Source of the DNA: Planctomycetota bacterium
GTDB taxonomy: Bacteria; Planctomycetota; UBA1135; GCA-002686595
Assembly: GCA_012959525.1 (NCBI GenBank)
Contig: DUDB01000080.1
Span: 1-64,000 of the forward strand
Length of the DNA: 64,000 bases
Direction: 5' to 3'
A program made the translations under genes and the position numbers. Below the pieces are notes generated by a model. That model was given only the letters and a program-made list of their open reading frames with translations, was not told the DNA's origin and made no database searches. Positions within the stretch are counted from its first letter, which is position 1. Every line of letters begins with the position of its first letter. Positions 14,296-24,104 of the stretch are shown here, piece by piece.

Positions 14296-15030
14296 CTAGA
14301 AGGACTCCACGAGCCAGGGCACCACGAGACCCGCGACTTCGTCGAGGCGGTCGGTGAAGCAATGATCCGCCCCCTCGACAGGGGCCAGCAGAGCCCTGTG
14401 GGGGCAGGCCTGGGCGCAGCGCACCGAATCCTCGAAGGGCACCAACTCGTCCTCGGTGCCGTGAACCAGGAGCCAGGGGGCCTCCACCTGGCTGGCCTGG
14501 GGCAGAGTGGTCTGGATCTCGCGCGCATCCTCAAGGAAAGACTCGCTGAGCTGCGCGTGCTCACGATCGAGCATGCAGTCCTCTCCAGGGGTGAGGTGTC
14601 CGAAGTGGCGCTGCATGAATCCGTGCACCTCCGTCATGCCTGCCAGGGAAACCAGTGCGCCGATGCGCTCGTCGGCGGCCGCGCGCATGACGCCCACCGC
14701 GCCTCCCATACTGTGGCCCATGTAGGCCACGCTCCATCCTTCCAGTGCATCGATCACCGCACCCAGGTCGGCGATCTCCTTGGAAATGCAGCTGTCCACG
14801 AATTGTCCCTCGGAGTCCCCGTTGCCCGAGAAGGAGAAGCGAAGCGAAGCGAGGCCTGCGGCGGACAGTGCATCACAAAGATGGGTCAGGTAGGGCCGGT
14901 CGTGGTGTGAGGTGACGCCGTGGCCGATGACAACCACCTTGCGATCGGCAGCCTGTGCGTCCTCTTGCCCAGGCGTGAACACGTGGTCCAGGCGCTCGCC
15001 CGATTCGTTGTGAATCTCCAGGGAAGTCAT
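14296..15030 (-). CDS. Alpha/beta hydrolase
   Basis: A 244-residue serine hydrolase of the alpha/beta fold. The nucleophile elbow GHSMGG is near residue 107; the acid is in HGTEDELVPFED and the base His in EGADHCFTD, so the triad looks complete. KVVVIGHGVTSHHDRPYL near the start fits the oxyanion-hole segment. There is no signal peptide. The family includes esterases and acyl hydrolases; the closest-looking type is the BAAT/dienelactone-like cytoplasmic group, but the substrate is not evident. Its ATG overlaps the stop of the SGNH-like gene by four bases (ATGA), so the two are translationally coupled. Confidence 0.85.
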   Translation of the reverse strand: MTSLEIHNESGERLDHVFTPGQEDAQAADRKVVVIGHGVTSHHDRPYLTHLCDALSAAGLASLRFSFSGNGDSEGQFVDSCISKEIADLGAVIDALEGWSVAYMGHSMGGAVGVMRAAADERIGALVSLAGMTEVHGFMQRHFGHLTPGEDCMLDREHAQLSESFLEDAREIQTTLPQASQVEAPWLLVHGTEDELVPFEDSVRCAQACPHRALLAPVEGADHCFTDRLDEVAGLVVPWLVESF

Positions 15031-16334
15031 TTGTCTTGGGTGGGGTCACTGTCGTTTCCGGACGGCTCCGGGAGCCCCATCATCCGTGCGATGTTGCCCG
15101 CCAGGATCCTGTTGCCTTCCTGCGTCACGTGGCAGCTGTCCACGTAGATCGTCTGGGGCACCTCCTTGAAGGTGTCGCAGGCATCCAGGGCCTCCACGCC
15201 CGCCTCGCGCAGCTCGCGGAGAGCTTCGCGCAGGAGCGGGTAGCCGCGGACCACGGCCGGATGGAGTCCCTCCTCATCGATCCCGACGCGCCGCTCCTCT
15301 TCGGTCATGACCTTGGACCCCTCGTCGTGCAGGGTCGGCTGCAACACGTGCACGTAGCGGATCCCGCGCGCCTCGCACAGCTGGTGCATGGCCAGCGACG
15401 AGCGCTTCCAGCAGGCGACTGCCTCAAGCACCGCGTCGCGGCCCGCCGTGCTGGCCGTGTAGCCCACCGCGCCGGCGCCCTTCAGGCGCTGCGTGCGGGA
15501 ATCGATCAGTTCCGCTTGTGCCCGCGCCCACTTGTCCTGGTAGCGGGCCACGCGCGAGAGGGCCAGGGTTCCAGTCAGCGCGCTCGCGCAATCCCCCCGC
15601 TCAAGGAGGCGGTTGCCCAACTCCCACACCTTCTGCTGGGCCTGATGGACTCGCAGGAGACCGTCCAATTCGGCGCCATCGATTTCCTGGCCCGCGAGAA
15701 GCGAACCCCATTGCCCCCGAGAGGGAAAGCTGGGCTCCACCCCCGAGCCCAGATTACCGCTGCTGATGCGCAGCTCGTTCAGGCCGTCCAGGTTGAGGAC
15801 CAGGTCCGGGTGGCAACCCTGGGAGAGAAGGTAGGCCAACTGGGTCAGTTGTTGGGGTTGCTTGTAGCCCGGCACCGAGAGGCCGAAGACGCGCACCTCT
15901 CGGCCTCCCGTGGCGCCTGAATTCTCCAGGGACTTCAGGAGGATCCCCAGCCCCTTGCCCTGGAAACCCGCCGCCACCGACCCGCCCTGGGACACAACCA
16001 CGTACGCGTCCTTCTGCCCCGAGCGGAAGCGCTCCACGATCTTCGCCGTGCGCACGGCCACCGTTCGGTGCACGTAGCCCGAATAGGGCTGCAGTTCGTA
16101 CTGGGGGCCGTGGCTCTTGCCCGGTGCGTTCGCCTCGGCCATCACTCCGGCCGTCAGGCCGCTCACCGCTTCCATGGTGCTCCTGATGGCCCTCTCCGCC
16201 GCGGCCCTCTCGTAGCCACGTCCTTCCATATTCAGCCACAGCCGCGTGGCACCTTCCGCCAGGGCCATTGCGCCAAGTAGCGAGATCAGACCCAGGAGCA
16301 AACGGCGCCGCATGGGATTAGGATACGCCTCCAC
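15027..16334 (-). CDS. Membrane-anchored SGNH/GDSL-hydrolase-like protein
   Basis: A 435-residue protein with an N-terminal hydrophobic segment (RRRLLLGLISLLGAMALAEGA) that is either a signal peptide or an anchor. The ATG at 16313, seven codons in, is an equally good start. Later features fit an SGNH hydrolase: SQGGSVAAGF (block I Ser), VLNLDGLNEL (block III Asn) and VDSCHVTQEGN (block V Asp and His). The middle region is long and helical, more than in short GDSL esterases. Such proteins act on acyl esters of polysaccharides or lipids in the periplasm. It is coupled to the downstream alpha/beta hydrolase and diverges from trmB across 43 bases. Confidence 0.7.
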   Translation of the reverse strand: MEAYPNPMRRRLLLGLISLLGAMALAEGATRLWLNMEGRGYERAAAERAIRSTMEAVSGLTAGVMAEANAPGKSHGPQYELQPYSGYVHRTVAVRTAKIVERFRSGQKDAYVVVSQGGSVAAGFQGKGLGILLKSLENSGATGGREVRVFGLSVPGYKQPQQLTQLAYLLSQGCHPDLVLNLDGLNELRISSGNLGSGVEPSFPSRGQWGSLLAGQEIDGAELDGLLRVHQAQQKVWELGNRLLERGDCASALTGTLALSRVARYQDKWARAQAELIDSRTQRLKGAGAVGYTASTAGRDAVLEAVACWKRSSLAMHQLCEARGIRYVHVLQPTLHDEGSKVMTEEERRVGIDEEGLHPAVVRGYPLLREALRELREAGVEALDACDTFKEVPQTIYVDSCHVTQEGNRILAGNIARMMGLPEPSGNDSDPTQDK

Positions 16335-17908: not shown

Positions 17909-19588
17909 CTACCAGCGCGTCGGCTCGTAGTCCTTCAGGAACTGACCCCAGCAGTGCACGCCGGTGTTGAATCCGGTGATGATGGGGTCGAGGACCCGCG
18001 CGGCTCCGTCCACGGAGTCCAGGGGCGGTGCGAAGCGTTGCGAGTGTTCTTTTTCGACGGCCTGCTCGAAGGGGTCTTCGTCCGTGACCCAGCCGGTGTC
18101 CACGCTGTTCATGTGGATGCCGCTCTTGAAGTAGTCCGCCGCCGAGGTGCGGGTCATCATGTTGAGCGCGGCCTTGGCCATGTTGGTGTGGGGATGGCGC
18201 GTGGTCTTGAAGGTGCGATAGAACTGGCCCTCCATGGCGGAGACGTTGACCACGTGCTTGTCAGTGCTCTCGATCCTGGCCATCAGGGGCTTGAGCTTCG
18301 CCGTCAGGACGAAGGGCGCCACGGAGTTCACCAACTGCACCTCGATCAACTCCACGGTGGGGACCTCGTTCAGCTCCATGCGCCAGGAGTTCTTGCGCCG
18401 CAGGTCGAGTTGCTGACCCTCGCCGTCCAGCATGCTCTCGGGGAAGAACTTCGCCTGATCCGCTTCACCAAGGAGGTCGAGCTGGCTCATGCCTGCCGCA
18501 CGGGTCAGACCCTGGAGTTCTGTTGAAGTACTCCCTGTTTGAAGTGTGGCGTTCGGTGCCGCACTCTCCTCCCCGGTCGGGAGTTGAGTCGCCCCCCCCG
18601 TCACCTGGGGGGCCGCCTTCAGGTCGTGGATCAGGTTCTCGTGCTTGTGCACCAGCGCCCGCGCCTCAGGGGGCAGATCTTCATAGATCTCCGACTCCAT
18701 CAGATGTGCGCTGTAGGCCGGTGGCCGACGCACGGTCTGGCAGGCGTTGTGGATCAGAAAGTCCAAGCGCTCGAAGTCCTCGTTCACGTGAGCCGCGAAG
18801 GCCTCGACGCTGGGCGTGTGGCGCAGGTCCAGGCCGTAGATGTGCAGGCGCTCCCGCCATTCTGCGGAGTCGGGCTCGGCGGCGAAGCGTCTGGCCGAAT
18901 CGCACGGGAAGCGGGTCGTGGCGATCAGGCTCGCTCCTGCGCGCAGGAGCATGAGGGACGCCTCGTAGCCGATCTTCACCCGCGATCCGGTGACGAGGGC
19001 CACGCGCCCCGAGAGGTCCGCCGTCTGATGGCGCTTGGCCCAGTTGAGCTCGGCGCACTCCGGACACATGGCGTCGTAGTGGGGGTGCAGGTCCTGGTAG
19101 TCCTCCTTGCAGATGTAGCAGCGCGCCGGCTCCTCCAGTCGCCTTGCCGCCTGCTCGCCTTCTTTCGGTTGCCAGGCCTGCTTCTCCAGCAGGTCCCGGT
19201 CCCGCTCGCTGATGTCGAGGCTGGGGGGCGCCACCGGATAACGCAGGGAGCGCTTGAGTGCGCGATTGCTCGTGGCGTTCAGGGCGGCATCGTCCACGCT
19301 GCGCACCTGTTCACGCGCTCTCTTGCGGCGCGCGTTGCTGAAGACGCGCCGTGCCTTGCGGTCGGGAAGGGCGATCAACCCGGCGGACATCCGCAACCGA
19401 TTGAGCACCTCCTCGTCCAGGGCCGCCAGTTGGCGTGGATCCTGGGCCAGGGACTCCAGCCACTTCAGGAGCTGCTCCCGCTGTTCTGCGGAGGGTGCAC
19501 CACCATCGGGAGAGTCTTGATCGGGTTCCATGGTCAGGTCGGGGGAATGGCCCCGGCGGGGGATTCTACCCCTTCCATCCCGAGTCAT
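17909..19588 (-). CDS. Atypical short-chain dehydrogenase with an N-terminal zinc-ribbon-like segment
   Basis: A 559-residue protein. Residues 1-150 are charged and helical. At 157-178 two CxxC pairs (C157/C160 and C175/C178) look like a zinc ribbon. The Rossmann domain begins at 195 with [11 protein letters not shown], followed by IATTRFP, and [16 protein letters not shown], where a plain NNAG would be usual. An insertion of about 110 residues follows. In the active site VNVSAMEG supplies Ser, but the YxxxK motif reads TNMAK (T468, K472), so the catalytic Tyr is replaced. The start at 19588 overlaps the propeller gene's stop (ATGA); the ATG at 19531 is an alternative. Possibly an NAD(P)-binding protein with altered chemistry. 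Confidence 0.75.
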
Positions 19589-22490: not shown

Positions 22491-24104
22491 TTACTTGAAG
22501 GTGATGGAAACAGCTTCCGAGAAACCAGTGGGCATGCCACCCATGTTGCGGTGCCAGTACTGGAAGTTCCAGGTTTGGCCAGCGAGGATCGTCGCACCAC
22601 CTGAGCTGGGGATGCCGAAGCTCGGACCACCGGTGAGGGTGGAGGAAATATCCGTAACGAACATGCCCATCATGTCGGTCATGCCCGTGTCCTTGGTGTA
22701 GCGGCCGATGGCCGCGCCGGCGAGGCAGAGGTTGCCACTGGCACCGAAGAGCGCGCCATCAATAATGCTGTTGCCCGAACCAATCAGGAGGTAAGTGAAC
22801 TGGTTCATCGGAGCACCCATCATCATCAAGTTGACCGGGCCGCCGAGGTCGCATCCCGAGGGAGTCAGGGTCGCCGCGTTGAGCGTACTCCCATCAGCCA
22901 CGGTGCAGAACTTGTTCCAGCAGGGAGGAGCCAGATCGTACTCATAGGCCGATCCCGCGTTCATGATGACGTCGTCGTCGTACACCGAGCCGACCACCAG
23001 GCCAGCTCCGCTGACGTCGATGCTGGATCCGTACAGGTCGCTCATCGCGGCGTCCGAAGCAAGAATCTTGTACTCCTGCAACTGAGTGGCGAAGTCAAAC
23101 ACGTAGACGGAGCCGGCGTTCATCGTGGCGTCGTCGTCGAAGGGGGCGCCCATGGCGACCCGACCACCGTCAAAGCTCACGGAGTATCCGAACTCATCGT
23201 TGGCGTCTCCATCAGTGGCCGTGAACTTGCCCATCTGCATGTTCATTCCCAGGTGGAACAGGTAGACGGCACCCGTGTCCATGTCGCCCGTTGATAGGCG
23301 GTCGTGCTTATGAGAGGAGATGATGGCGTTGCTGCCCTCAAGGTCCACCATCCAACCGAAACGGTCCCCAGTCATCATGTCCATGGGCTCAAACTTGTGG
23401 GTTTGCGCCCCGGTCGTCGCGTCGAAGACATAGGCTGCACCGTGGTCACCATGAAGGTCCGCACCGACGAGCACACTGTTGCCCGAGATGGAGACCGACC
23501 AGCCCATCATGTCGCCCGCAGATCCATCGGAGGCAGTCAGAGAGTGCAGCTGCGTCGACGTGGCGACGTCAAAGACAAAGGCCTCGCCAGAGTCGACACC
23601 CATGGGGTCACGGGTATAGGCGCCAACGGCCGCGATGCCGTTGTCGATGTCCACGCCAATACCGAAGTGGCCCATCATGACCATCGTGTTGGGAACAAGG
23701 CGTCCGACTTCGAGGCCGGTGGTCAGGTCATAGACGTATACCGCGCCCACCATGTTCATGCCCATCACATCGTGATGGGGGGAGCCCACCAAGAGAGTGT
23801 CTCCTTCGATGGCCAGGTCGAATCCAAACTTGTCGCCAGAACCGCCATCGGCGGGCTGCAAGATGTAGAGCTCCATGCCCATAGTCCTGTCGTAGACATA
23901 GACGGCGCCCGTATCGACTCCGTTGACCACGGCATTGCGAGCACTGACTACGACGTAATTGCCCTCGACGACTACGGAATGGCCAAAGGCATCGCCCATT
24001 CCGGCGTTGGAAGCAACGTATTTACGAGTCTGCGTCTGGCCCGTTGCGAGACCGGTGACCAAAGCGCCGGCGGCACAGAGTGAGAGAAAGCGGTTGTGTT
24101 TCAT
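22491..24104 (-). CDS. Methionine-rich secreted FG-GAP repeat protein
   Basis: A 537-residue exoprotein. A signal peptide (FLSLCAAGALVTGLATG) is followed by about seven blades of an integrin-like FG-GAP propeller, each with GDxFGxSVxxxGxxxxVG and GAVYVYD-like strands, to about residue 400. A separate C-terminal domain of about 125 residues starts around PPCWNKFCTVADGS and ends WNFQYWHRNMGG...VSITFK; I know such tails from secreted planctomycete proteins, and they may mediate export or anchoring. Methionine is unusually common (35 of 537), clustered in the loops as MMMGAPM, MNMQMG and MTDMMGM. No Shine-Dalgarno sequence precedes the ATG. Role unknown; adhesion or metal binding are possibilities. 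Confidence 0.8.
   Translation of the reverse strand: MKHNRFLSLCAAGALVTGLATGQTQTRKYVASNAGMGDAFGHSVVVEGNYVVVSARNAVVNGVDTGAVYVYDRTMGMELYILQPADGGSGDKFGFDLAIEGDTLLVGSPHHDVMGMNMVGAVYVYDLTTGLEVGRLVPNTMVMMGHFGIGVDIDNGIAAVGAYTRDPMGVDSGEAFVFDVATSTQLHSLTASDGSAGDMMGWSVSISGNSVLVGADLHGDHGAAYVFDATTGAQTHKFEPMDMMTGDRFGWMVDLEGSNAIISSHKHDRLSTGDMDTGAVYLFHLGMNMQMGKFTATDGDANDEFGYSVSFDGGRVAMGAPFDDDATMNAGSVYVFDFATQLQEYKILASDAAMSDLYGSSIDVSGAGLVVGSVYDDDVIMNAGSAYEYDLAPPCWNKFCTVADGSTLNAATLTPSGCDLGGPVNLMMMGAPMNQFTYLLIGSGNSIIDGALFGASGNLCLAGAAIGRYTKDTGMTDMMGMFVTDISSTLTGGPSFGIPSSGGATILAGQTWNFQYWHRNMGGMPTGFSEAVSITFK

Follow-up and report, generated by a model that had tools for sequence, protein, structure and literature searches.

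A distinct SDR family lacking the YxxxK tyrosine and carrying a finger-like N-terminal head

Introduction

SDRs form one of the largest enzyme superfamilies, and no residue of theirs is better known than the tyrosine of the YxxxK motif. Pteridine reductases (PTR1) keep YxxxK and have the middle Gly of the cofactor loop replaced by a basic residue, and mitochondrial dienoyl-CoA reductase (DECR) has its catalytic Tyr 15 residues before the Lys. FabI is reported to use Tyr156 and Lys163 for catalysis, and the SDR motif has also been described in the form YxxMxxxK (PMC10864336). Active sites without the Tyr have also been described: a passage on eugenol synthase argues a role for the equivalent Lys (PMC1991597), and one on the Burkholderia cenocepacia enzyme BcSDR, which reads LxxxK, places a water at the Tyr position and gives the authors' suggestion of Ser or Asn as the base (PMC11614110).

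Here, we describe an SDR-like gene of a Planctomycetota bacterium (GCA_012959525.1, contig DUDB01000080.1), located in a stretch of 64,000 nucleotides that is called the window below. Sequence comparison places its product in an uncharacterized, distinct SDR family that lacks the Tyr and has a finger-like head, and suggests an active enzyme whose catalytic site has changed.

Gene and reading frame

The features of the gene are listed by their coordinates in the window, with residues numbered from the start of the full frame and counts referring to the aligned rows that cover each position.

17909 to 19588 (-): SDR-like protein, whole reading frame, 559 codons; probable start Met20
19178 to 19489 (-): N-terminal helical region, residues 34 to 137; no clear Pfam or PDB relative seen
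19055 to 19120 (-): C157-x2-C160 ... C175-x2-C178, probable structural zinc site; C157 and C160 in 134/134, C175 and C178 in 135/135
18968 to 18991 (-): TGSRVKIG, cofactor-loop motif, Lys205 replacing the middle Gly of TGxxxGIG; R203 in 135/135, K205 in 134/135 (Arg in the other)
18905 to 18919 (-): TTRFP after the second strand; R226 in 135/135
18722 to 18751 (-): [10 protein letters not shown] at the NNAG position, residues 280 to 289; N281, A282, Q284 and T285 in 135/135, R288 in 134/135
18359 to 18721 (-): insertion, residues about 290 to 410, from the NNAG-like motif to the next core helix; N400 and W402 in 135/135
18227 to 18247 (-): NVSAMEG, tetrad Ser450 and invariant Glu453; S450 in 133/135 (Thr in 2), E453 in 135/135
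18215 to 18226 (-): QFYR (455 to 458) with tyrosine Y457; 97/122 and 98/135 rows, 10/28 representatives
18173 to 18196 (-): HPHTNMAK, with His465, His467, Thr468 (the Tyr position) and Lys472; all four in 135/135 rows and 28/28 representatives

All the features named in the original prediction were present: TNMAK (residues 468 to 472) stands where YxxxK is expected, the ten-residue motif takes the place of NNAG, and the Rossmann fold is preceded by two CxxC pairs. The Pfam profile adh_short scored 62.2 bits against a cut-off of 26.6, split in two stretches of which the best covered residues 195 to 286, while the best stretch of adh_short_C2 was 413 to 502, with the insertion sitting between the two matched halves.

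The first ATG of the frame overlaps the stop codon of the upstream PQQ-propeller gene. Since the frame of this ATG meets a stop after two codons in the copy from the same genus (L002, part of the same contig as L021), and Met20 is common to both, translation probably starts at Met20 (19531), which would give a protein of 540 rather than 559 amino acids. A TAGAAT box lies between the stop of the upstream gene and Met20 (19563 to 19568, minus strand), is present in the same-genus contig too, and might be the promoter -10 box of the SDR-like gene. Comparison with the one same-genus homologue over 537 codons gave 391 identical, 96 silent and 50 residue-changing codons. The resulting dN of 0.052 against a dS of 0.386 indicates that the gene is under purifying selection. 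A sequencing or frameshift artefact was ruled out by the full-length agreement among homologues and the low dN/dS, and a chance origin of the motifs by their preservation family-wide.

Homologue sets

Conservation was counted in two nested alignments. The 122-row set holds 20 plus 109 extracted sequences minus six duplicates (L101, L102, L107, L021, L022 and L034) and identical sequences; the 136-row set adds ten hand-picked distant or fragmentary rows with weaker matches and four plasmid rows. Because L138 and L139 are fragments, N-terminal and C-terminal respectively, and L013 is devoid of the N terminus, 134 or 135 of the 136 rows cover a given site, and a single apparent Arg at position 472 comes from the tail of L138, which is misaligned. 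Since the rows include near-copies and are not independent, counts were repeated on representatives at 100% (132), 90% (108) and 70% identity (28), and the conservation outcome was unchanged. As the homologues were collected by similarity to the family, they show what the family keeps and not how frequent a feature is among SDRs. The search patterns NACQTVRR and D[KQ]H[VI]VNVS favor those stretches in the 80 loci L021 to L100; rows from the whole-genome and plasmid searches are free of this pattern bias.

The active site lacks the tyrosine in every family member seen

Position 468 was Thr in all 135 covering rows and Tyr in none. TNMAK was conserved among the homologues, as mostly was the motif at the NNAG position, and together with the presence of all four Cys in every covering row this upheld the proposal of a distinct family, an outcome that speaks for the family and not for SDRs at large because the rows were found by similarity to it. 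Asn421 and Glu453 were likewise invariant (135/135 covering rows and 28/28 representatives at 70% identity). The most distant members (L130 to L133) kept HTNMAK and the Cys pairs and had most of the linker of the insertion absent, and the four plasmid homologues kept HPHTNMAK and had no Tyr at 457. This last residue, the tyrosine of QFYR, appeared in only 1 of the 13 most distant rows covering the position and was replaced across the family by Ser, Asn, Gly, Glu, Gln, Ala and others.

As a control, the PF00106 profile found 17 places in the window's own genome, which were aligned via a crude profile. Nine other SDRs (in L140 to L148) read YxxxK at the aligned site, and one further SDR (seen in L143 and L150) reads Y-x6-K like FabI (ENYGFMAPAK). 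Two domains in very long frames (L151 and L155), which we would guess to be polyketide-synthase-like, kept the Tyr and not the Lys. Leaving out L149, L153 and L156, the window protein was alone among the own-genome SDRs aligned there in having Thr at the site.

Cofactor loop, NNAG position and insertion

Of the marks of classical SDRs, YxxxK, TGxxxGxG and NNAG were absent and the tetrad Asn and Ser were present. The replacement of the middle Gly by Lys205 in TGxRVKIG is a departure that the original prediction did not list. An invariant Arg after the second strand usually means NADP(H) in SDRs, and Arg226 suggests such a preference here. At the NNAG position the family reads (N/H/S)NA(C/A)QT; residue 283 was Cys in 116 of 122 rows and Ala in 6, and L134 and L135 have Ser in place of this Cys. 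The large insertion that had been predicted is there at about residues 290 to 410, but only about 326 to 365 is a variable linker (pLDDT under 50 at 334 to 338 and 343 to 352), both ends being conserved.

Predicted structure and the N-terminal head

The AlphaFold2 model built from 66 rows had a mean pLDDT of 85.9 and a pTM of 0.83. Solved SDRs matched its residues from about 184 to 555 with Z up to 23 (best 4z0t, Z 23.2, rmsd 3.1, 232 aligned), human DECR1 (1w6u) being among them with Z 21.6, rmsd 3.5 and 253 aligned, so that the predicted fold can be assigned with confidence to the SDR superfamily. The active-site helix spans residues 466 to 488, with Thr468 on its first turn and His465 just ahead of it. 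Under ideal-helix geometry, His465, Thr468 and Lys472 would share one face and His467 would point elsewhere, His465 itself lying outside the helix proper. The loop 454 to 460 beside the site is poorly predicted (pLDDT under 50 at 454 to 456 and 458 to 460).

The four Cys of the head were kept in 28/28 representatives at 70% identity and probably hold a structural zinc. In the model, a strand (150 to 156) is followed by C157 and C160, a second strand (163 to 166), and C175 and C178 at the start of a helix (176 to 186). The earlier description as zinc-ribbon-like is fair as far as four invariant Cys go, but the modeled order of strands and helix looks more like a treble clef, and no solved fold matched clearly. 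Folded alone, the head was predicted with pLDDT 85.7 and pTM 0.61, and its comparison with solved structures gave nothing convincing (best PDB E 1.3, best Z 2.3). Pfam matches to finger-like families were weak, the most frequent being DUF2039, matched by 11 of the 66 members with a best E of 0.0079.

Distribution of the family

Of 101 relatives searched, 74 gave an SDR-like match of some kind at E up to 0.001 and only 30 (own genome included) gave one under 1e-50; one same-genus genome gave none. Sampling of 294 genomes from the own phylum found the family in 40 at E up to 1e-25. For a Rhodanobacter genome, 22 of 97 members of its family were positive, and for a genome titled Spartobacteria, 2 of 115 members of its phylum, the central genome being included in both counts. 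A collection of 84,980 species encoded at least 567 relatives among at least 590 pattern-bearing stretches. The best 80 of these at least 567 relatives (L021 to L100) came, by title, from Planctomycetota, Myxococcota, Verrucomicrobiota, Gemmatimonadota, Acidobacteriota, Elusimicrobiota, Spirochaetota and Pseudomonadota; phylum labels here are record titles, and titles of bins may be wrong. Among 72,556 plasmid records, four matched at an E limit of 1e-40 (Tsukamurella, Deinococcus and two Streptomyces). Two annotated plasmid relatives carry the plain name "SDR family NAD(P)-dependent oxidoreductase," so that what sets the family apart is hidden by the annotation. A single-protein scan of viral contigs, sensitive to close relatives only, found no relative, and PADLOC gave no defense-system match at E up to 0.01.

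Going by record titles, relatives are thus patchily spread over ten phyla. The sequence is strongly held by comparison with this patchy distribution: the 47 rows L040 to L099 of alignment A2 had 51 to 56% identity to the window protein. The phyla clustered in a 78-row tree, with 13 label changes against 41 in shuffles, and the window protein fell in a group of 17 rows, titled Planctomycetota (7) and Myxococcota (5) or unassigned (5). The relative on a contig titled Klebsiella pneumoniae (L086) clustered with Verrucomicrobiota-titled rows, and this title looks like that of a mislabeled bin. The window protein was the only family copy found in its own genome (92.76% complete). Elsewhere in the order, one genome encodes two divergent copies (G085:C22:751-2307 and G085:C205:29787-31241). 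A distant homologue lies behind leucine-rich repeats in an open frame of 990 amino acids (L136:193-3162, minus strand), where LRR_6 scored 38.7 bits for the whole protein and no single stretch alone passed 0.01.

Gene context

By Pfam, the gene is flanked by a PQQ-propeller gene upstream and a 3-keto-disaccharide-hydrolase-like gene downstream, and the same-genus contig (L002/L021) is the only other locus in which these neighbors adjoin it. Among the remaining loci searched, distant relatives lie away from the SDR-like gene: those of the propeller in L084 and L032 (30 to 32% identity), and those of the hydrolase-like protein in L050 (36%), with weaker matches in L056, L064 and L074 (25%). Under crude gene finding that took in some antisense frames, no neighboring gene family was found in more than 7 of the 80 loci L021 to L100. 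No operon partner that would name a pathway was found among the loci examined, and without a recurring neighbor family none is named here. In the window itself, the gene at 22491 to 24104 (minus strand) encodes an FG-GAP repeat protein (PF14312, seven stretches) that looks unusually Met-rich, with runs such as MGMNM and MDMMTG, and the 435-amino-acid frame at 15027 to 16334 (minus strand) had no Pfam match up to E 0.1.

A possible histidine-based proton donor

The case for catalysis lies in the retained Asn, Ser and Lys and in how strictly the site is conserved. Our preferred reading, held tentatively and at somewhat less than an even chance, is a stand-alone and probably NADP(H)-dependent SDR oxidoreductase in a family of its own, with His465, perhaps together with Glu453, as proton donor and a structural zinc in the head. 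His465 lies seven residues before Lys472, in the register of FabI Tyr156-x6-Lys163, and since the spacing of HxxTxxxK is that of YxxMxxxK, it would be the likeliest donor. By this analogy, His465 would stand in for Tyr156 and act as proton donor or acceptor, perhaps in a pair with Glu453 from across the loop, while Thr468 would fill the classical Tyr position and Lys472 would hold the nicotinamide ribose as in other SDRs. The insertion may cap the active site, the four Cys would keep the zinc in the N-terminal head, and the many conserved basic residues (R203, K205, R226, R288 and K461) point to NADP(H) as cofactor and to an anionic substrate. Against the assignment of His465, His467 and Thr468 are equally invariant, so that conservation does not single it out, the loop next to the site is poorly predicted, and the gene context gives no pathway. 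A fuller version, doubtful although a real possibility, would be a widespread SDR family in which the Tyr was swapped for a histidine-based center (His465, His467 and Glu453), possibly with a catalytic metal, forming an N-S-His-K site beside the zinc module; we found no description of such a site in the literature searched. No literature on the family was recognized in open-license papers, motif letters included, which is weak evidence of absence.

Nothing need replace the Tyr if Lys472 does the proton work with Ser450 or a bound water. This is a somewhat unlikely reading for which eugenol synthase and BcSDR are precedents and with which the conservation of Lys472, Ser450 and Asn421 agrees, but it leaves the strict invariance of HxHT and Glu453 unexplained. 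Alternatively, His465, His467 and Glu453 could bind a metal that polarizes the substrate in place of the Tyr, as HxH and Glu in 135/135 rows would allow. With His467 within the helix and His465 just before it, however, the geometry is awkward for one metal; we know of no metal-dependent SDR of the HxH-plus-Glu kind and consider this very unlikely. Another base was a plausible part of the original prediction, but the Tyr of QFYR that it offered is disfavored by its lack of conservation: Tyr457 does stand 15 residues before Lys472, in the manner of dienoyl-CoA reductase, whose DECR1 structure is among the fold matches, but with Ser, Asn, Gly and others in its place outside 98/135 rows and 10/28 representatives this is a highly improbable base. 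The suggested NAD(P)-sensing role, as a non-oxidoreductase sensor or regulator that binds NADP(H) and talks to a partner through its zinc finger, draws on the absence of the Tyr in all 135 covering rows, on the Cys head in every covering row and on the one distant relative with leucine-rich repeats in the same open frame. We regard it as unlikely: it fits less well with the strict conservation of Asn421, Ser450 (Thr in 2), Lys472 and the His and Glu around the site, residues among the most conserved that a pure sensor would need less, and no neighboring gene family recurs in more than 7/80 loci.

The family is Tyr-less in every member seen, over ten phyla by record titles, with the rest of the site and HxHT kept. 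It therefore offers a clean natural test of Tyr-free SDR catalysis and merits biochemical work, while not being categorically new.

Comparison with known systems

With classical SDRs (Pfam PF00106; FabG, gluconate 5-dehydrogenase, tropinone reductase), which provide the best solved-structure matches (Z about 23), the family shares the Rossmann fold and the tetrad Asn, Ser and Lys. Unlike them, it has Thr for Tyr, Lys for Gly of TGxxxGIG, NA(C/A)QT for NNAG, a long insertion and a finger-like head. The divergent SDRs of the FabI type (YxxMxxxK) resemble it, by register alone, in that the candidate acid His465 is likewise seven residues before the Lys, but the residue is His and not Tyr in 135/135 rows, and the Cys head and the insertion are additions. 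Several PTR structures gave profile matches to the window protein, and the basic residue of the PTR1 cofactor loop is found here, whereas YxxxK is not, and the score is no closer than that of many other SDRs. The Tyr of the DECR type is present in the window protein and is not a feature of the family (98/135, 10/28). In BcSDR and eugenol synthase the active-site Lys is kept and the Tyr lost, as in the present family; compared by description, the passages on these two enzymes mention neither an HxHT motif nor Cys pairs. Tyr-less SDRs as such are already known, and what the present family adds to them is a variant with the HxHT motif and the Cys head.
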